Both the position numbers and the translations under genes were made by a program. Positions 3,969 to 47,928 of a DNA stretch of 48,161 bases are shown here, in pieces. The stretch spans positions 1 through 48,161 of the forward strand of contig JAUVCN010000007.1 of NCBI GenBank assembly GCA_030595715.1, in the 5' to 3' direction. This DNA is from Thermoplasmatales archaeon (GTDB lineage: Archaea > Thermoplasmatota > Penumbrarchaeia > Penumbrarchaeales > Penumbrarchaeaceae). The first letter of the stretch is position 1. Each line of letters opens with the position of its first letter. The notes beneath the pieces were generated by a model, which had not been told where the DNA came from, did not search any database, and saw nothing but the letters and a program-made list of their open reading frames with translations.

Positions 3969-4466
3969 ATGGTGGAAGGAGAAAGCTTCAACATCTGTCT
4001 TGGGGGGACATTCTCACCTATTCATCGAGGGCATCTCAAGCTCATTCGGGAAGCATTCAAAAGAGGTGGGCAGGTCTCTATCGGCCTCACCAGCGACGTT
4101 CTGGCCAATAGCACCAGAGAAAGAACGGTTCCCATCTATGAAAAGCGTTTGAGAGGGCTGACCAAGGTATTGGACCATATGTCAAAGGTATCCGGGATAA
4201 AATATACCGTACAGGAGATCCATGACAAATTCGGTTTCGCTGTTGAAGAGGAGATCAACGCGATCGTTGTATCGAAGGAAACCGGACCTGCAGTTGATGA
4301 CATTGACCGAGAAAGGATGAACAATGGTCTACCCTCATTGAAAAGGTTCATTTTGGACATGGTGCTCGATGACAGGGGTGAAAAGATATCTTCCACCAGG
4401 GTGGTTGAGGAAAAGATCGATCCAGAAGGTAAGATCATATCATTGAACGAGGAGGTTAGAAAGTGA
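3969..4466 (+). CDS. coaD: Phosphopantetheine adenylyltransferase (archaeal PPAT)
   Basis: This nucleotidyltransferase joins 4'-phosphopantetheine and ATP to form dephospho-CoA, the penultimate step of CoA synthesis. The 165 residues carry the N-terminal GGTFSPIHRGH motif (the T/H-x-G-H ATP site), the GLTSD segment after the second strand and the C-terminal ISSTR signature. The archaeal form is diverged from bacterial CoaD, and this gene follows the archaeal pattern. GGAGAG at 3958-3963 supports the ATG. Its TGA overlaps the GTG of the downstream rhomboid gene by four bases, giving an operon with pyrH, DUF2116 and rhomboid. Confidence 0.88.
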   Translation: MVEGESFNICLGGTFSPIHRGHLKLIREAFKRGGQVSIGLTSDVLANSTRERTVPIYEKRLRGLTKVLDHMSKVSGIKYTVQEIHDKFGFAVEEEINAIVVSKETGPAVDDIDRERMNNGLPSLKRFILDMVLDDRGEKISSTRVVEEKIDPEGKIISLNEEVRK

Positions 4467-5446
4467 CAGGGTTCATACCATCAAGTACCCAATCTATCAT
4501 TCTCTTGATCGCCATCTTCATCTTCTTTTTCCTGGCCATATACTTACCATGGAGAAAAAAGGCCACTGTTACCAGTGTCATCTTGATATCATTGATCGTT
4601 ATCTTCTCGATCCAGTTGGTCCTTTCTTCGAACATCTTCTATGACATTCCATTCTTGAATGGGATGGAAAGGGTATCGCAGGGAACGATCTACAGAGAGA
4701 TCGGATTCTATCCCCGGTCCATTGTTGATGATCAGACCTTCTATCAGTTCATAACATCCACATATCTTCATTCAAATTTCCTGCATCTTATCTTCAATTT
4801 CATCGGTCTACTCCTTCTTGGCATTCAATTGGAGAAAAAAATTGGGTGGTTCAGTTTCTTGATCCTCTACTTCGGATCCGGTATCATTGCAGGAGCCTTG
4901 ATACTGATGTTATCACCTTTCAATGCAGTGGGACAATCCATGATGATACCTTCCATCGGAGCGTCAGGATGTATATTTGGGATCCTTGGTGGATACTGGT
5001 TCCTCTATCCCAAGGACAAGATATTCTTCCCCCTGCCATTACAATTCATCAAGATGACAAATAAATGGCCTGTCTCCCTGATATTCTTGATCTATGGTGG
5101 GATCACATCGTTCTTCCTCATCATGGGTGATAATTCGAATACCAGCCATATAGGTCATTTTGGGGGATTGGTCGGAGCATTCCCGATCGCAGCACTCATC
5201 AGACCTCCCGAAAAAATTGAAAAGATCAAAAAGCTCAAAAAGGAAGATCTTTCAGTCTATGCAAAAAAAGCTAAACAGAAAGAATACCTTCAAAAAGCCT
5301 ATGATGCTGACGAGGAGGACGTAAGGAATGCCTGGTTGGATGAGTTCTTCCTCAATACCAAGTGTCCCAAATGCAGTTCTTCCAATATGAGATTCGAAGA
5401 AGGAAAAGGCATCTGTCCGAAATGTGGCAAGACCATCCGACCTTGA
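4463..5446 (+). CDS. Rhomboid intramembrane serine protease with C-terminal zinc ribbon
   Basis: A polytopic membrane protein of 327 residues. The HLIFN segment of transmembrane helix 2, the GASG motif with catalytic Ser near residue 168 and a His in HFGGLVGA near residue 232 make up the rhomboid Ser-His dyad. Rhomboids cut single-pass membrane proteins within or next to the helix. A charged Lys/Glu-rich linker (about 250-290) leads to an unusual C-terminal zinc ribbon with two CPKC knuckles (about residues 300-322), predicted to be cytosolic. Start is a GTG overlapping the coaD stop (GTGA); GGAGG at 4451-4455 is the ribosome site. The single-anchor surface proteins in this window are plausible but unproven substrates. 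Confidence 0.88.
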   Translation: MTGFIPSSTQSIILLIAIFIFFFLAIYLPWRKKATVTSVILISLIVIFSIQLVLSSNIFYDIPFLNGMERVSQGTIYREIGFYPRSIVDDQTFYQFITSTYLHSNFLHLIFNFIGLLLLGIQLEKKIGWFSFLILYFGSGIIAGALILMLSPFNAVGQSMMIPSIGASGCIFGILGGYWFLYPKDKIFFPLPLQFIKMTNKWPVSLIFLIYGGITSFFLIMGDNSNTSHIGHFGGLVGAFPIAALIRPPEKIEKIKKLKKEDLSVYAKKAKQKEYLQKAYDADEEDVRNAWLDEFFLNTKCPKCSSSNMRFEEGKGICPKCGKTIRP

Positions 5447-29160: not shown

Positions 29161-29186
29161 TCCCTCGGAAGAGACAGGTGGTAGCC

Positions 29187-32100
29187 ATGTCCAAAACAAC
29201 ATTTGCTGTTCTTACCGTCATTATACTCACACTATCTGCGATCCCGTTCTTCGCATCCAGTGAGGCGTCCAAGTCAGACAAGGACAATGATGGATACTGG
29301 TATGTGGATGGCAATGATCCAGAACCCATCCTGAAGACCGATTATATTCAGGTCAACACAGATCCGGCCGCGGTTGGAAGGGATACCTTAAGTTACCAGG
29401 CAGTGGTCCAGGCAGATCTGGGTTTCAACTTCAACTATTATGGTCAAAACTATGACAAGATCTACATCGGATCGTATGGTGCGATGTCCTTCGTGGAGTC
29501 AACAGGATTATCCCGTTCACCGTCCAAAACTATGCCTTCTGGAGCATCACCAAGAGGAGTGATAGCAGTTCATTGGTCATGGTACCACTGTCAATCCAAT
29601 GATAAGAGTAGACTATTCACCCTTCAGAAGGAAGTTGACGGAGAGAAGGCCTTCATCGTTGAATGGAATCCTACGAGCGGAGGCAGGTTCCAGGCTATCC
29701 TCTATTCAGGTGGAATGATCAAGTTCCAATACAGTTCCGTGCCTAGTGCTCCGGTCGGATCATATACAACAATAGGAATCGAGAAACCAGATGGGATGAC
29801 AGGTCTCGTCATTGCAAACTCCGTTCGCAGGACCATACCTCTGTTCAAACTTCCGCATGCCATCGCATTTGTGAAGGATGAGGTGAAGGTCAAGGATGTG
29901 GACCTGGTAAATGGGGATGGAAAACGCGGCGACACTATCTTTGCCGGATCAAAACCATACCATTTCCAGGTGGAAGCAACTCATTCCGGAGGAGCTGAGA
30001 AGATGTCGAACATCCTTCTGACCCTGGGGTCCCTTCACGGTCAGGAGAACATCAAGTTCATCTATTATCACAAGAACAAGACCTTCGATCAATTGAGTGG
30101 AATGAACCATGCACAGATCAACCATGATCTTTCAACGTTCGATCAGAACAACGATTATCTCACAGTGGATTTCATGGTGGATTTCAAGATCGAATACCCA
30201 AGTCAGGACATGCGAAATGTTACTGGAAGGGCGGTTGGAAAATCAGCAGTTCCAGATGAAATGGACATTGGAGAACTATATTGGGTCGAGACAGAGGTGG
30301 AATGGGACCCAATGGACCTTTACGTTTTCCGAACATCCGATAATAGGGCATTGAGAGATAACGATTATGTTGCAGGTGAGGAGAACATCAAGTTCACCGG
30401 GATCAAGGTCGTCTATGAAAGCTCCGATGTGCAACCTCCTCCAACAATGTTCAGCCTGGAGATAACTGATAATTTCAACACGAAGAGGGTAACCTACATC
30501 CAGCAAGGAGGAATGCTTGATTCAACATGGATCTCGGTGGATCAATCAACATTGATGACCTGGACCTTCGAGGTAGTTGGATTCCCAAAATTCTCAATGC
30601 TTTCAGACCCGTTCGAGTTCAATCTCAAGGTGGATATCGATCGACCGGACGAGGTTCAGTCCATCTCCATACATGCTGATTCCAAGGACGACCCTCCAGC
30701 ATTGAATGACAATGATGGCAAGGTGTTCGTAATATGGGAAGAAGCTCAGGATGGTGGGTCTGGGATAGGATCTTACTTGATCAAAGCCGAAGCTGAGGAT
30801 TATTTGATCGAGAAGACAGTTGGATCCCATGTGACCTGGACAGAATTGGGGCAGCAGATAGGAAAGGGATTGCCAGAGGGAACCATCAACATCTCCGTCA
30901 CACCTGTTGACGATGTAGGTAACATTGGCCCCGCAAATTGGGCTTTCTTCCAGATCGATCTTACAGGACCCACCTATGAGGTCATCGATCCGGCGATCGG
31001 TGAATGGGCACTTAGCCTGAGACCGGACATCAAGGTGAGGATTGTAGATGAATTGACAGGGATCCAGGGAGAGAGCCTGGATTACAGGGTCTCGAAGGAT
31101 GGAGGATATACATTCGATGACTGGCGGAGCTTCTACTATTTCGGGAGCGAGAACGATCTGATCCGAACCATCAAGCCAGATCTCTGGGAAGGAAAAGGTA
31201 ACATCTTGGAATTCAGGGGGCGTGATGTTGCAAATTCAACAGAAACAAGGTCCGAAATGATACCCATCTGGGTGGACGCGAACCTCCCTTACATAGGAAT
31301 GAGCGAACCAGAGGTCGACGAGAACGGAACCACGGTCCATTGGCTCCGGAATATAGAAGAACCCTTGAGGATCAAGATCCATGATTGGAAGGGGTCCGGT
31401 ATAGATCCGAACAGGATCTCGTATAGATATTCAAAGAACGGAGGGGAGGCTTTTTCGGCAGATATCCCTCTTGAGGGGGAAGGATACAATAACTCCCATG
31501 GAATCTTTGAGTACTCGTTCACCCTGAGTAAGGATTGGGACCAGGGAAGAGATAACATCCTGGTCGTGGATGTATATGATAAGGTCGGAAGGAACACCAC
31601 GAAGACCTTCAGGATCAAATTCGACATGATACCGGAGATCACCCTGTTATCACCATTACCGACCTTGAAGCTCTACGACAATGAGACCGTTCCATTCTTC
31701 ATGCTTGTGAACGATCCGGACGGTGGAGAGGATATCACCATCAAATGGTTATCCAATATCGATGGTGAGATAGGTGCGGGACAGAAACTTGACGTATACC
31801 TCTCGGCAGGCGATCATATCATTCAGGTGACCATTTATGATGGCGTTTACAGGGTCAACAAGATATTCACCATAACCGTTCATGCTTCTATACTTGATGA
31901 CCCTCGCTACAAGGATTCGGACGGGGATGGTATGAACGACAGCTATGAGAAGGCATACGGGTTGAATCCATTGGCCGATGACTCGAAGAACGATCTTGAT
32001 GGTGATGGGCACTCCAACATCGAAGAATATTATGCAAATACCGATCCAACAGAGAATAACCATTACCCGGGTTCCGAGATCTTCGATGATCGTTTTCCCC

Positions 32101-32303
32101 TGCTGCCCCTCATCCTACTTATCATAGCCCTTTTGGTCTTAATTGGATCGGGTGTACTTCTCGTCAGGGAAGCAAACAAGTCCAAGGCGGTAAATGTGAT
32201 GGCGCCACCGATAATACCAGCTCCATCGTTGCCGATGGGATATCAACAGGATCGTCAGATCTCACAGGGTCCCGAACTACAGGCCCTTCCCCCATCAAGA
32301 TAA
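29187..32303 (+). CDS. Large surface protein with Fn3/Ig domains and Asp-rich anchor
   Basis: About 1038 residues; ATG 29187 follows GGTGG and opens a signal peptide. The N-terminal globular part (about 29340-29865: LGFNFNYYGQNYDKIYIGSY, VEWNP) resembles nidogen/NIDO-like or PKD-associated sheets. Ig-like and Fn3-like domains follow (about 29880-31880). The calcium-type module (31914-32052: DSDGDGMNDSYEKAYGLNP, DLDGDGHSNIEEYY) precedes one membrane helix (about 32095-32163) and a short Pro-rich tail. It shares the plan of the neighbour at 26018, but the ectodomains differ, so it is not a simple recent duplicate. Sequons are frequent. Role unknown. Confidence 0.8.
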   Translation: MSKTTFAVLTVIILTLSAIPFFASSEASKSDKDNDGYWYVDGNDPEPILKTDYIQVNTDPAAVGRDTLSYQAVVQADLGFNFNYYGQNYDKIYIGSYGAMSFVESTGLSRSPSKTMPSGASPRGVIAVHWSWYHCQSNDKSRLFTLQKEVDGEKAFIVEWNPTSGGRFQAILYSGGMIKFQYSSVPSAPVGSYTTIGIEKPDGMTGLVIANSVRRTIPLFKLPHAIAFVKDEVKVKDVDLVNGDGKRGDTIFAGSKPYHFQVEATHSGGAEKMSNILLTLGSLHGQENIKFIYYHKNKTFDQLSGMNHAQINHDLSTFDQNNDYLTVDFMVDFKIEYPSQDMRNVTGRAVGKSAVPDEMDIGELYWVETEVEWDPMDLYVFRTSDNRALRDNDYVAGEENIKFTGIKVVYESSDVQPPPTMFSLEITDNFNTKRVTYIQQGGMLDSTWISVDQSTLMTWTFEVVGFPKFSMLSDPFEFNLKVDIDRPDEVQSISIHADSKDDPPALNDNDGKVFVIWEEAQDGGSGIGSYLIKAEAEDYLIEKTVGSHVTWTELGQQIGKGLPEGTINISVTPVDDVGNIGPANWAFFQIDLTGPTYEVIDPAIGEWALSLRPDIKVRIVDELTGIQGESLDYRVSKDGGYTFDDWRSFYYFGSENDLIRTIKPDLWEGKGNILEFRGRDVANSTETRSEMIPIWVDANLPYIGMSEPEVDENGTTVHWLRNIEEPLRIKIHDWKGSGIDPNRISYRYSKNGGEAFSADIPLEGEGYNNSHGIFEYSFTLSKDWDQGRDNILVVDVYDKVGRNTTKTFRIKFDMIPEITLLSPLPTLKLYDNETVPFFMLVNDPDGGEDITIKWLSNIDGEIGAGQKLDVYLSAGDHIIQVTIYDGVYRVNKIFTITVHASILDDPRYKDSDGDGMNDSYEKAYGLNPLADDSKNDLDGDGHSNIEEYYANTDPTENNHYPGSEIFDDRFPLLPLILLIIALLVLIGSGVLLVREANKSKAVNVMAPPIIPAPSLPMGYQQDRQISQGPELQALPPSR

Positions 32304-43152: not shown

Positions 43153-46100
43153 ATGAACAAGAATACGAATACTTTTGAGATGAAAAGAACCCTTTCGATC
43201 CTGGTTGTCGGGATATTCATCCTGATGGCTTTTGTTGTCGTTGATTGGACGACAATCGCCGGAGATGGGTCAAATGGAACGATGGATGCTGCCATCGATG
43301 AGCCCGTAAGATTTTCAGGCTCCAGAGACCTTAACAGAGATCCGGCGGATCAGATGTTCTATCAGACAGGCAATTATGCCCATTTCGGCATGAACCTTGT
43401 CACGGGAGATGTGAATGGAGACGGTCATGATGACCTTATAATCGGCCAGGGTGGTTATATCTACTCGGGACCCAAGGTATATGTCTACTACGGCATGACC
43501 CATTTCACAGATAAGATGACACAGAGCAATGCCGATGCTTCCTTTTCCGTTTCAGGCGGATATGACTATTCGAATGGGAACTCGGTCGCCTGCGGCGATG
43601 TCAATGGTGATGGGATCGATGATATCATCATCGGCTGTCACAGGGCATCCGGAAGGACAGGTGAGGTGCATGTCTACTTCGGCAGTACATCCCTCCCTTC
43701 AAGTAACACCAATCCGGATATCAAGATCATAGGTGAGCGAGGCTATTCGTCTTCTAATTACTTCGGAGAGGAGGTACATTGTGATGACTTCGATGGAGAT
43801 GGAATAGATGATATTGTGGCTCTCGCACCGAATTGGTATGAGAGGATCTACGGGAACGAATACTATGGCGGGATCTCCAACTACAAGCGATATAATTACA
43901 CTGGTCTGACTTTCATTATCTGGGGGAGGACCACATCTTCATGGCCTGCCACATTGGACCTTCGCAGCTCCGATCCGGTAACCGATCTCTATGTGAGGAT
44001 CAAGGGCTGGATGCCAAATGGACAGTACACCTATGCATACATGGGTGATGATGCAGGTGGATCCCTGGGATCAGGAGATTTCAACAATGATGGCAGGACC
44101 GATCTTGTCATCGGCTCAGCACGCGCTTACTCCTATTATAGTACAAGTTCAAGATATTATTATGCAGGAGCGGTCTGGCTCATAGAGGGAATGACAAGGA
44201 CCGAATGGATGCAGTGGTCCGGACACTACAACATGCTCGAAAGGAACGGAGAGTATATCATGTTCACCACCGACAAATCGTATTCCTACACCGGCCTGCA
44301 CCCGAGATTGGGTGATGTCAACGGTGACGGGGTGGACGACCTAGTCGTTGGTTCCAGAGGTGAGAATGGATACAATGGAGCCTGGAGGATCGTATATGGA
44401 ATGAACGATACTACCTCGTTGAAGACAAATTTCGTCAGGCAGTACCCGTATGGCGGATACTTCAATATCTTCGATGATGTGACGGATGTATACATCAAGG
44501 GATCTTCGAATTCCTATGCAGGTGCAACATGGTTGGCAGATTTCGATGGCGATGGTATCGATGATCTCCTCCTCGGTGATTCCTCGAAGTACTCCGATTC
44601 CGGTAACTACTATGCGGGATGGGTTGGCCTGTTCTACGGCAGGACCAACTGGCCGGCCACATTGAACTACGCCTCGGCAGATGCTATCTTCCAGGGAGCT
44701 CATTACTACGGATATATGGGTCATAACTATGTTCAGAGCTTGACAAGCGGTGATTTCAACAACGATGGTATCGACGACATCGTCATGGGAGCTTACAGAG
44801 CCAGGACGACAGGTAACATGTACTACGCCGGTGCGGCCTACCTGCTCTTCAGCAAGCCCCCCACAGTTGATATCTTTGATCCGGTCATTCTAGACGCAGA
44901 CGGCGATGATGGCAAGACCGTGCTTGCAGGATCTGGTGGAGCCGAGAACAAATTGACCGATCTTACCGGCGATGGGATCTATACCATAGCGACGGGGTAC
45001 AACAACTCGTACATCGTCAACGATATCAAGGAAATGAGACTCACATTCCAGCTCAAGGGTGCTTTCAGGGACTTCAAATATACCATAGGTTTTTCCGTTA
45101 ACAACGGAACATTCTACATCATTGACAACCCCCTGAAAGGAATTATTTTGAGAGAGTCCGAATTCAATATGACAAGCTTGACCCAGATAAAAGTGAACTT
45201 CTCCTTCAGCTTTACAGATGATTTCCTCTCCCAGGACCTGTTCGATCTGATCGTCGAAACAGAAGATAAGCATGGGATCAATCAAGTTGTGAAAGAGGAT
45301 TTCCTCCATCTGGAAAAGGATATCACATTCGAGGGTGATGATTTCATCGTGACAAGGGACGGCGACCCCATCAGCAGAGGACAGTTCCTTGCCGGAGGAT
45401 CGGATCTTTCCGTCACCGGATTACGTGTCATCTACGAGGGAACGACCGTCTCCCCTTTGAATGAAAAGTTCTTTGTGAGGGTGACGGATTCATACTCCAG
45501 GATCTTCGAAGATGTGGACTCATCCGGAAGAGATGTGTACTTCGAGATACCCACAACGATCGATTCTGGCGTATACAAATTCTCCATAGACATCCAGATA
45601 ACATCCGATTATATCTCAAAGATCCAGAAGACCGCGATCATACCGATGTTCTATCTGAACCTTGATCTCAATGGTCCCGAAGCTCCGACCAATGTAAGGT
45701 TCCACGCGGACACCCTGGAGGACCCGGAAAGCAGATGGGACGATGATACGGATGTCTGGCTCAGCTGGGACCCAACATACGACACCCAGCAGGGGATCCT
45801 GAGATACTATGTCGAGATATCAGGATCAACAAGGGGCACCGAGACACTGATCATTGAAGAGGGCACATCCACAAACATCACCCTTCCGGGTGCCGGTGTG
45901 TTCACCGTTTCAGTATATGCGGAGGATGAATCCAACAATATGGGCCGTGCTACCTCCGCAATGATCATCATCGATCTTGGCATGATCGAGATAATCGGAT
46001 CAAATCCGACGTTCAAGGGTGAAAAATGGTTCATGACCACCGAGGTCGATGTGACATTCACCATAGTCGATGAGGTTTTCGCCGCAAATGGACCAGAGGT

Positions 46101-47928
46101 GGACCTCAGAACTCTTGAATACAAGGTCACCACCGAAAGAACAGAGGCGGCCAGAGATCTGGCAGAATGGCAGAAGATCATCAAGTACAATGTATTGGAT
46201 GAGATCTCCACCCCGACCTCTGTGAAGCACACTGTCAAAGCAGCCATTGAAGTGTCCGAGGGCAAGGAGAACTTCGTCTGGTTCAAGGTCTCTGACGAGG
46301 TAGGGAATACCGGTATGACCATGACCTACGATCCGCAGGTTGCCATCGATGAGGCAAAAGCCTATCTCAGCACCATGGCAAACTGGACCGAGGTGGAAAA
46401 GAACGAATACCTGGTGGATCAGACCGAATTGGCCCATGAAATGGCCGATTCGATCAACCCGTCAAGGATATGGGTCGACAAGACCCCTCTGGGTTATTCA
46501 TCCCCCACACCATCAAGTGATCTCCTTGAAGATAACAGGGTAACAGCCACTATCCAGATAGTTGATCTTGGAAGCTGGGTGGATGCATCCACCATACAGT
46601 ATTCTGTTTCAAGGAATGGAATTTCCAACTATGGTGGTTGGATCAATGTGGACCCAATGATCGATGCATCCACGATCCTCGCCAAGACCGTGCAACCTCT
46701 GCTGTTCGAACCTGACTCCATCAACTATGTCAGATGGAGAGCAAAGGATGTCGCAGGAAACGGCTATTCGGTTTCCGATGATTATGTCATCTCGATCGAG
46801 GGCATACCGGTGAACAATCCGCCGGTCTGTAATATCAAATCACCGGAAATGAACGATGTCTTCGACACACAGACCGAAGTTATCCTTGATGCCACAGGTT
46901 CATCTGATCCGGATAACGATGAGCTCCAGTATAATTGGATCCTCGGAAACAGATCCATTATCAGCTCATTGTCCTACTTCGAGATCGAGACAGCTTCGAT
47001 CCTTGGACCTGGACCCCATGTGATCACGCTCGAGGTCACAGATGGACAGAGGAAGGTCAGTAAATCCATCTCCATCTTCGTCAAGATGCATCCTGATGAG
47101 GTTGACACAGATGGCGATGCTGATCCCGATGGATCGGATCCTGATGATGACAATGATGAACTATCAGATCTGCAGGAGATCATCATGGGCACAAATCCCA
47201 GACTCAGGGATACCGACCTTGATGGAGTTGATGATCTTCAGGATCCGGAACCACTGAATCCGCTTGTCTGGAAAGAAGAGGAGGATAAAGGCACTATCTC
47301 TTACTATACCGTGCTTTCCCTGCTCATCTTCCTTGCAGTCCTTATCCTTCTCATCGGATCACTTATCGTGATGAGAAGAAAATCAAGCATGAACAAGGAT
47401 CGCGTGGAGAGATCGGTCATCGCGGAAGGAAAGATCGTATCCAGATACGAGGAGCTGACCGGTGTCGGATCGCCACTGCTCCCACAGGTCAAGGATATGG
47501 GACTTTCACTGCCGCCAATTGCAGCCCAGCAGGTCGCTCCAATGAGAAGAGCAAAGGAGCTGACCGAAACCCCCTCACTTCCCGCAAAGGAGGTAGAGGC
47601 ACAGGCACCTGCACCGGCATATCCTGCAAAGGCCGAGCCCATGGAAGCACCGGTTCCGGATGCTCCCACACCTGATGTGAAAGAACCAGCCCCAAGGAGA
47701 CGGATCAGGAGAAAGACAGAGGGAGCTCCTGCTGAAACGACCCCTGGCATTCCGAACCCGGAGGACCTGACAGCTACCGCAGCTCTGCCAGGATCAGCCG
47801 AGGCAGCACCAGAAGGACAGCCGGCTGGTTCCGCAACGACCTGCGATCTGTGTGGATCATCGATAGATGTCCCATCAGGCGCAACAACTGTCGAGTGCCC
47901 ACTTTGTGGTGAGAAGAAGAACCTTTGA
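43153..47928 (+). CDS. Giant FG-GAP surface protein with cytosolic zinc ribbon
   Basis: A 1591-residue protein. A signal peptide (about 11-35) is followed by seven FG-GAP blades, each with a calcium loop like GDVNGDGHDD (near 43405, 43597, 43780, 44074, 44311, 44539, 44749): a complete integrin-alpha-like propeller. Ig/Fn3-like domains (about 44880-46800) and a PKD-like domain (about 46830-47090) follow, then an Asp-rich module (47103-47250) and one membrane helix (47296-47372). The long Pro/Ala-rich cytosolic tail ends in a zinc ribbon, CDLC at 47842-47853 and CPLC at 47896-47907. The propeller suggests ligand or surface binding; the intracellular zinc ribbon suggests partner contact across the membrane. 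Repetitive sequons are present. Confidence 0.85.
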   Translation: MNKNTNTFEMKRTLSILVVGIFILMAFVVVDWTTIAGDGSNGTMDAAIDEPVRFSGSRDLNRDPADQMFYQTGNYAHFGMNLVTGDVNGDGHDDLIIGQGGYIYSGPKVYVYYGMTHFTDKMTQSNADASFSVSGGYDYSNGNSVACGDVNGDGIDDIIIGCHRASGRTGEVHVYFGSTSLPSSNTNPDIKIIGERGYSSSNYFGEEVHCDDFDGDGIDDIVALAPNWYERIYGNEYYGGISNYKRYNYTGLTFIIWGRTTSSWPATLDLRSSDPVTDLYVRIKGWMPNGQYTYAYMGDDAGGSLGSGDFNNDGRTDLVIGSARAYSYYSTSSRYYYAGAVWLIEGMTRTEWMQWSGHYNMLERNGEYIMFTTDKSYSYTGLHPRLGDVNGDGVDDLVVGSRGENGYNGAWRIVYGMNDTTSLKTNFVRQYPYGGYFNIFDDVTDVYIKGSSNSYAGATWLADFDGDGIDDLLLGDSSKYSDSGNYYAGWVGLFYGRTNWPATLNYASADAIFQGAHYYGYMGHNYVQSLTSGDFNNDGIDDIVMGAYRARTTGNMYYAGAAYLLFSKPPTVDIFDPVILDADGDDGKTVLAGSGGAENKLTDLTGDGIYTIATGYNNSYIVNDIKEMRLTFQLKGAFRDFKYTIGFSVNNGTFYIIDNPLKGIILRESEFNMTSLTQIKVNFSFSFTDDFLSQDLFDLIVETEDKHGINQVVKEDFLHLEKDITFEGDDFIVTRDGDPISRGQFLAGGSDLSVTGLRVIYEGTTVSPLNEKFFVRVTDSYSRIFEDVDSSGRDVYFEIPTTIDSGVYKFSIDIQITSDYISKIQKTAIIPMFYLNLDLNGPEAPTNVRFHADTLEDPESRWDDDTDVWLSWDPTYDTQQGILRYYVEISGSTRGTETLIIEEGTSTNITLPGAGVFTVSVYAEDESNNMGRATSAMIIIDLGMIEIIGSNPTFKGEKWFMTTEVDVTFTIVDEVFAANGPEVDLRTLEYKVTTERTEAARDLAEWQKIIKYNVLDEISTPTSVKHTVKAAIEVSEGKENFVWFKVSDEVGNTGMTMTYDPQVAIDEAKAYLSTMANWTEVEKNEYLVDQTELAHEMADSINPSRIWVDKTPLGYSSPTPSSDLLEDNRVTATIQIVDLGSWVDASTIQYSVSRNGISNYGGWINVDPMIDASTILAKTVQPLLFEPDSINYVRWRAKDVAGNGYSVSDDYVISIEGIPVNNPPVCNIKSPEMNDVFDTQTEVILDATGSSDPDNDELQYNWILGNRSIISSLSYFEIETASILGPGPHVITLEVTDGQRKVSKSISIFVKMHPDEVDTDGDADPDGSDPDDDNDELSDLQEIIMGTNPRLRDTDLDGVDDLQDPEPLNPLVWKEEEDKGTISYYTVLSLLIFLAVLILLIGSLIVMRRKSSMNKDRVERSVIAEGKIVSRYEELTGVGSPLLPQVKDMGLSLPPIAAQQVAPMRRAKELTETPSLPAKEVEAQAPAPAYPAKAEPMEAPVPDAPTPDVKEPAPRRRIRRKTEGAPAETTPGIPNPEDLTATAALPGSAEAAPEGQPAGSATTCDLCGSSIDVPSGATTVECPLCGEKKNL

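Follow-up and report, generated by a model that had tools for sequence, protein, structure and literature searches.

In a Thermoplasmatota MAG (G000; 3.07 Mb) we identified a 1591-residue surface protein that joins an integrin-type propeller, a single predicted transmembrane (TM) helix and, at its extreme C-terminus, a zinc ribbon with four invariant cysteines. The gene is encoded in the window, by which we mean the whole stretch of DNA that was analysed (48,161 nucleotides, in G000). We propose that the ribbon serves for protein docking in the cytosol and is carried on a flexible Pro/Ala tether by a type I integrin-type receptor, a reading that we hold with slightly better than even confidence. 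The features of the gene and its product are listed in Table 1.

Table 1. Features of the surface-protein gene and its product, in window positions
Feature	Position	Strand	Basis
Gene, 1591-aa surface protein	43153..47928	+	single open frame, translation, orthologues of nearly full length, ~40% identical
N-terminal hydrophobic signal segment MKRTLSILVVGIFILMAFVVV, residues 10-30	43180..43242	+	hydropathy
Seven-blade FG-GAP integrin-type propeller, one DxNxDG-type calcium loop per blade	43315..44877	+	Pfam, AlphaFold2, PDB matches
PKD-like domain	46813..47088	+	sub-threshold Pfam match to K319L-like_PKD (E 2e-4) over 1239-1309
Thrombospondin-type-3-like DxDxDG calcium repeats	47095..47265	+	sequence
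Predicted transmembrane helix, residues 1387-1407	47311..47373	+	hydropathy, positive-inside charge in 14/14 homologues
Juxtamembrane helix and motif R[YF]ExhTGh-x4-LPxh, then a further LP	47374..47562	+	alignment of 14 tails, tail model
Disordered Pro/Ala-rich linker	47563..47826	+	pLDDT about 45-55, P+A 42%
C-terminal zinc ribbon	47827..47925	+	4 Cys invariant in 14 tails, top segment identity, four-strand fold

An integrin-type head on a predicted type I surface protein

The earlier note had described an integrin-like surface protein, and all of its parts are present: seven FG-GAP blades, calcium modules, a single C-terminal TM helix and a terminal CxxC/CxxC ribbon. FG-GAP was matched in seven stretches (Pfam; E 1.7e-34), with a calcium loop of the DxNxDG type in every blade, and the propeller was modelled with a pLDDT of 79.7 and a pTM of 0.87 (AlphaFold2). 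The top PDB match by sequence was integrin alpha-V (E 7.8e-9), and the top fold matches of the model were integrin alpha-5 and alpha-V (E 1.4e-12), at about 12–19% identity and TM-scores of only 0.4–0.6. With TM-scores of this moderate size, the head deserves the label ‘integrin-like’.

Metazoan integrin alpha subunits share with this protein the seven-blade FG-GAP propeller, calcium loops, a stalk, one TM helix and a cytosolic tail. However, they have three or four calcium loops rather than seven, and they lack the PKD/TSP3-like elements in the stalk and the zinc ribbon in the tail. They also pair with a beta subunit (beta-I/vWA headpiece), a partner that is not known for the window protein. 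In addition, integrin alpha has a KxGFFxR (GFFKR) motif after the TM helix, whereas the membrane-proximal tail of the window protein, which starts RRKSSMNKDRVERS, contains no GFF, nor does any of the 14 homologous tails that were aligned. A true integrin alpha subunit is ruled out by the missing GFFKR motif together with the seven calcium sites. Bacterial integrin-type propellers likewise have a calcium site in every one of their seven repeats (Chouhan et al. 2011, PMC3192720); those described there had no TM helix, in contrast to the window protein with its TM helix and conserved cytosolic tail.

A start of K/R followed by hydrophobic residues is common to the window protein and other complete members of the family. 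PKD-type domains were matched in the protein (Pfam), and in two orthologues (L033 and L038) TSP3_bac gave a weak match below the cut-off. The flanks of the TM helix carry two K/R outside and seven inside, and the positive-inside charge, found in 14/14 homologues, predicts a type I surface protein (N-out, C-in) with a cytosolic C-terminus. We find support for the arrangement claimed earlier, in which the integrin-type propeller faces outwards and the zinc ribbon lies within the cell, with its sidedness given by this prediction.

The terminal ribbon and its tether

The ribbon reads C-DL-C-GSSIDVPSGATTVE-C-PL-C-GEKKNL-stop (CxxC-x14-CxxC), inside the last 28 residues. Its cysteine codons start at 47842, 47851, 47896 and 47905 (residues 1564, 1567, 1582 and 1585) and the stop codon occupies 47926-47928, so the ribbon that the earlier note had reported is in place, from its first cysteine codon at 47842 to the stop codon ending at 47928. 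Structure prediction of the tail, which that note had proposed, gave a ribbon of four short strands (183-212 of the tail model; AlphaFold2, pLDDT 81–88).

Conservation of the cysteines in homologues had been set as the test that could overturn the ribbon. We aligned 14 tails from two families of one order (that of the source genome), which fall into two main paralogue groups. All four cysteines are invariant in 14/14 tails, across the two paralogue groups and the two families, while no conservation is seen for the other, scattered cysteines of these proteins. The ribbon is also the most conserved segment, with 48–82% identity to the window protein, compared with 26–40% for the propeller and 24–55% for the linker. 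Since synonymous sites were near saturation and dN/dS is unreliable where pS is saturated, pN was used instead; in three ortholog pairs it was 0.027, 0.123 and 0.053 for the ribbon versus 0.142, 0.258 and 0.135 for the linker, and amino-acid change in the ribbon was the lowest or low among the segments. A chance or mis-called ribbon is ruled out by the invariant cysteines and this codon-level constraint. The two invariant CxxC knuckles and the four strands predict a C4 zinc ribbon that would bind zinc.

No curated ribbon family in Pfam scored above its cut-off; the best was Zn_ribbon_FGT1_2 (E 0.024; 14.6 bits versus 27), and a LysW-type ribbon matched with E 0.06. A fold search of the PDB with the tail model (Foldseek) likewise gave no significant match (best E 0.7), and among its low-confidence matches are two membrane proteins, ZitP and TMEM55B, each matched in its cytosolic domain. 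By sequence, weak similarity was found to archaeal Zn-ribbon RNA-binding proteins and RNA polymerase subunit P (E 0.2–0.8), as would fit a ribbon that binds nucleic acid or ribosomes and tethers translation or DNA to the membrane. However, these matches are at chance level, such likeness is common to any short C4 ribbon, and the ribbon is acidic to neutral rather than basic (four D/E and two K in the last 30 residues). We consider a nucleic-acid role very unlikely.

The stretch between membrane and ribbon differs in part from the ‘about 140 Pro/Ala-rich residues’ noted earlier. It is ∼156 residues long and not uniform in composition: the first ∼60 residues form a predicted helix and a motif, and the Pro/Ala richness is real for the ∼88 residues that follow. 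The helix spans 6-58 of the tail model, and the TM helix is predicted to run on to about residue 58 of that model. In the motif, R53, E55, T58, G59, L65, P66 and L75 are invariant among the aligned tails. This conserved juxtamembrane element, overlooked by the earlier note, is a second conserved part of the tail, which may offer a further site of interaction. Among 390 genomes sampled, the tail with this LTG motif is confined to the order of the source genome. Used as a probe beyond the order, the alignment found mostly other ribbons, some on cytosolic proteins, and it was therefore dropped as a phylum-wide probe.

The linker is poorly conserved and varies in length among homologues, and in all 14 tails the ribbon is terminal, behind this flexible tether. 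Because it is terminal on a variable, flexible tether, a docking head fits the ribbon better than a structural core.

Ribbon tails in the genome and the phylum

FG-GAP ORFs were found on 19 contigs of G000. Counting FG-GAP proteins only, tails with CxxC pairs occur in 5 of the 15 that have a TM helix and a complete C-terminus (C99, the window type, C114, C171, C93 and C67), with a more irregular CxxC pattern in C67 than in the other four. The C114 paralogue carries the same tail as the window protein. Other FG-GAP membrane proteins of the genome have acidic or Pro-rich tails. Two other large surface proteins in the window (29178-32303 and 1-2913, both +), related to the window protein through its stalk or propeller, have a TM helix and Pro-rich tails without a ribbon. 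In another large single-pass surface protein of G000 (C30; L090:9266-12001 (-); 912 aa present, truncated at the 5′ end), the cytosolic tail is a TIR domain (TIR_2, E 6e-21), which gives this archaeal protein a Toll-like layout.

Elsewhere in Thermoplasmatota, terminal ribbons follow a single TM helix on other ectodomains: subtilase-CARDB (L129), fn3/FG-GAP (L133, L134), PKD (L132, L139), WD40-like/PKD (L138) and CARDB (L050, L037). The two CARDB-repeat surface proteins (L037:1-5526 (+) and L050:4836-8000 (-)) have at least two zinc ribbons in the cytosolic tail. Like the window protein, those of L129, L133, L134, L138, L139 and L050 combine a large ectodomain, a single TM helix towards the C-terminus and one or more C-terminal ribbons; unlike it, they lack the juxtamembrane LTG motif, and their ectodomains are mostly unrelated. 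Therefore, the layout recurs in Thermoplasmatota with different ribbons, and the window protein is not a one-off. A wider interpretation, in which large adhesive or enzymatic ectodomains, one TM helix and cytosolic ribbons docking on a shared intracellular scaffold would make up a Thermoplasmatota-wide receptor system, an independently evolved archaeal counterpart of integrin adhesion complexes, seems to us quite doubtful.

The ribbon might also have no specific partner and serve to cap the C-terminus structurally or to tag assembly quality, as a small cytosolic knot that would shield the disordered tail from proteolysis or aid membrane insertion or oligomerisation. Its place in the very last residues is consistent with such a cap, and different ribbons end many unrelated surface proteins of the phylum, which fits a generic role. 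However, within the family the sequence around the cysteines is conserved beyond the need of zinc binding (CxLCG..., CPLCGE), and a long tail that lacks a ribbon is seen in many of the sister FG-GAP proteins; we regard the cap as unlikely. A docking head is suggested instead, because the ribbon is a small, terminal and strongly conserved module on a variable tether that is repeated on different ectodomains.

Another possibility is release by intramembrane proteolysis, in which a rhomboid would free the tail and the ribbon would act as a soluble cytosolic messenger, as in Notch. The window encodes a rhomboid protease (4463-5443 (+); E 2e-25) that itself ends in a CxxC/CxxC ribbon. In family f28, a rhomboid gene adjoins the subtilase-CARDB-TM-ribbon gene in 10/10 genomes by distance (two loci read directly, the rest by spacing); at L129:866-6785 (-) and L130:170-6270 (+), no more than about 20 bases separate the rhomboid gene from the ribbon gene that comes after it. 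However, the rhomboid of the window lies 38 kb from the surface-protein gene, those of the remaining f1 genomes are on other contigs, and none was detected in the two incomplete f2 genomes, where the tail is nonetheless present. Rhomboid release is thus very improbable here, and a rhomboid partnership as a general rule is ruled out, since the f1 rhomboid is not adjacent to the gene.

Gene context and a proposed docking role for the ribbon

We compared gene neighbourhoods across genomes. Upstream of the gene in the window are glycosyltransferases (GT2, PMT and GT87), and G005 carries their homologues in the same gene order. Neighbours of the C99-type gene are conserved: a FolP-like gene (a label read from the sequence, not from a family search) is found in five f1 genomes, and a topoisomerase-like gene in three of those five and in one f2 genome. 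In G000, G006 and G002, an FtsX-type ABC transporter and a MoxR/DUF58 cluster are encoded upstream of the C114-type paralogue, and the ABC part is also present in G004. At the loci of the ribbon-tailed paralogue (L099:314-11728 (-), L040, L041 and L043), the transporter genes lie upstream of it and the MoxR/DUF58 cluster further upstream. No neighbour common to C99-type and C114-type loci was found in this comparison. Because the two neighbourhoods differ, gene context indicates no candidate partner, and partner finding by neighbours fails.

CxxC pairs can serve as redox or metal switches, and the ribbon could in principle sense zinc levels or thiol redox state and so alter the state of the receptor. 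We find this highly improbable, as the glycosyltransferase, FolP-like and topoisomerase-like neighbours give no pointer to metal or redox regulation, and a surface for interaction is suggested by the residues that are conserved between the cysteines.

By analogy, the closest functional precedent for the tail ribbon is ZitP of Caulobacter crescentus, in which a ribbon in the cytosol binds PopZ, an organiser of the cell pole, and directs localisation to the pole (PMC5182065). ZitP resembles the window protein in being bitopic, in having a domain outside the cytoplasm and in carrying a small zinc ribbon on a linker in the cytosol (PMC5182065). In contrast, ZitP is a bacterial protein of about 245 aa without a propeller, its ribbon (zinc_ribbon_5) is N-terminal and DUF3426 lies on the far side of its TM helix, whereas the window protein has a C-terminal ribbon and no match to DUF3426 (Pfam). 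Its topology is the mirror image of that of the window protein, and ZitP is not a relative, the likeness being that of the general ribbon fold alone. AgmX/GltJ (Myxococcus) and TcaA (Staphylococcus) are examples of further bacterial membrane proteins with a cytosolic ribbon at the N-terminus.

We infer a mechanism in which the propeller, on its long, calcium-bound, Ig/PKD-like stalk, would recognise a surface or extracellular ligand. The TM helix would run inward into the conserved juxtamembrane helix and motif, and the Pro/Ala tether would then hold out the ribbon in the cytosol. There, the ribbon would bind a cytosolic protein and thereby anchor, cluster or position the receptor, or report its state. 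The functions suggested earlier, a sensor or a link to cytoskeleton or envelope, are plausible.

The earlier note also did not recognise the architecture as one already described. In the literature consulted, mostly outside subscription journals, we found no published account of an FG-GAP propeller with a TM helix and a terminal ribbon, and to that extent this holds; however, the protein is one case of a layout that recurs in Thermoplasmatota, and cytosolic ribbons on bitopic membrane proteins were already known from bacteria (ZitP; PMC5182065). What is new is the combination of integrin-type propeller, conserved juxtamembrane motif and terminal ribbon, together with its recurrence in the phylum; the kind of module is not new.

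Most likely, the surface protein docks to a cytoplasmic component through its ribbon. Being short, conserved and probably soluble, the tail would make an easy bait for the inner contacts of archaeal surface proteins. If the ribbon docks a cytosolic partner, an integrin-type head would be connected directly with the inside of the cell, mechanically or by signalling, in archaea that are only distantly related to animals.
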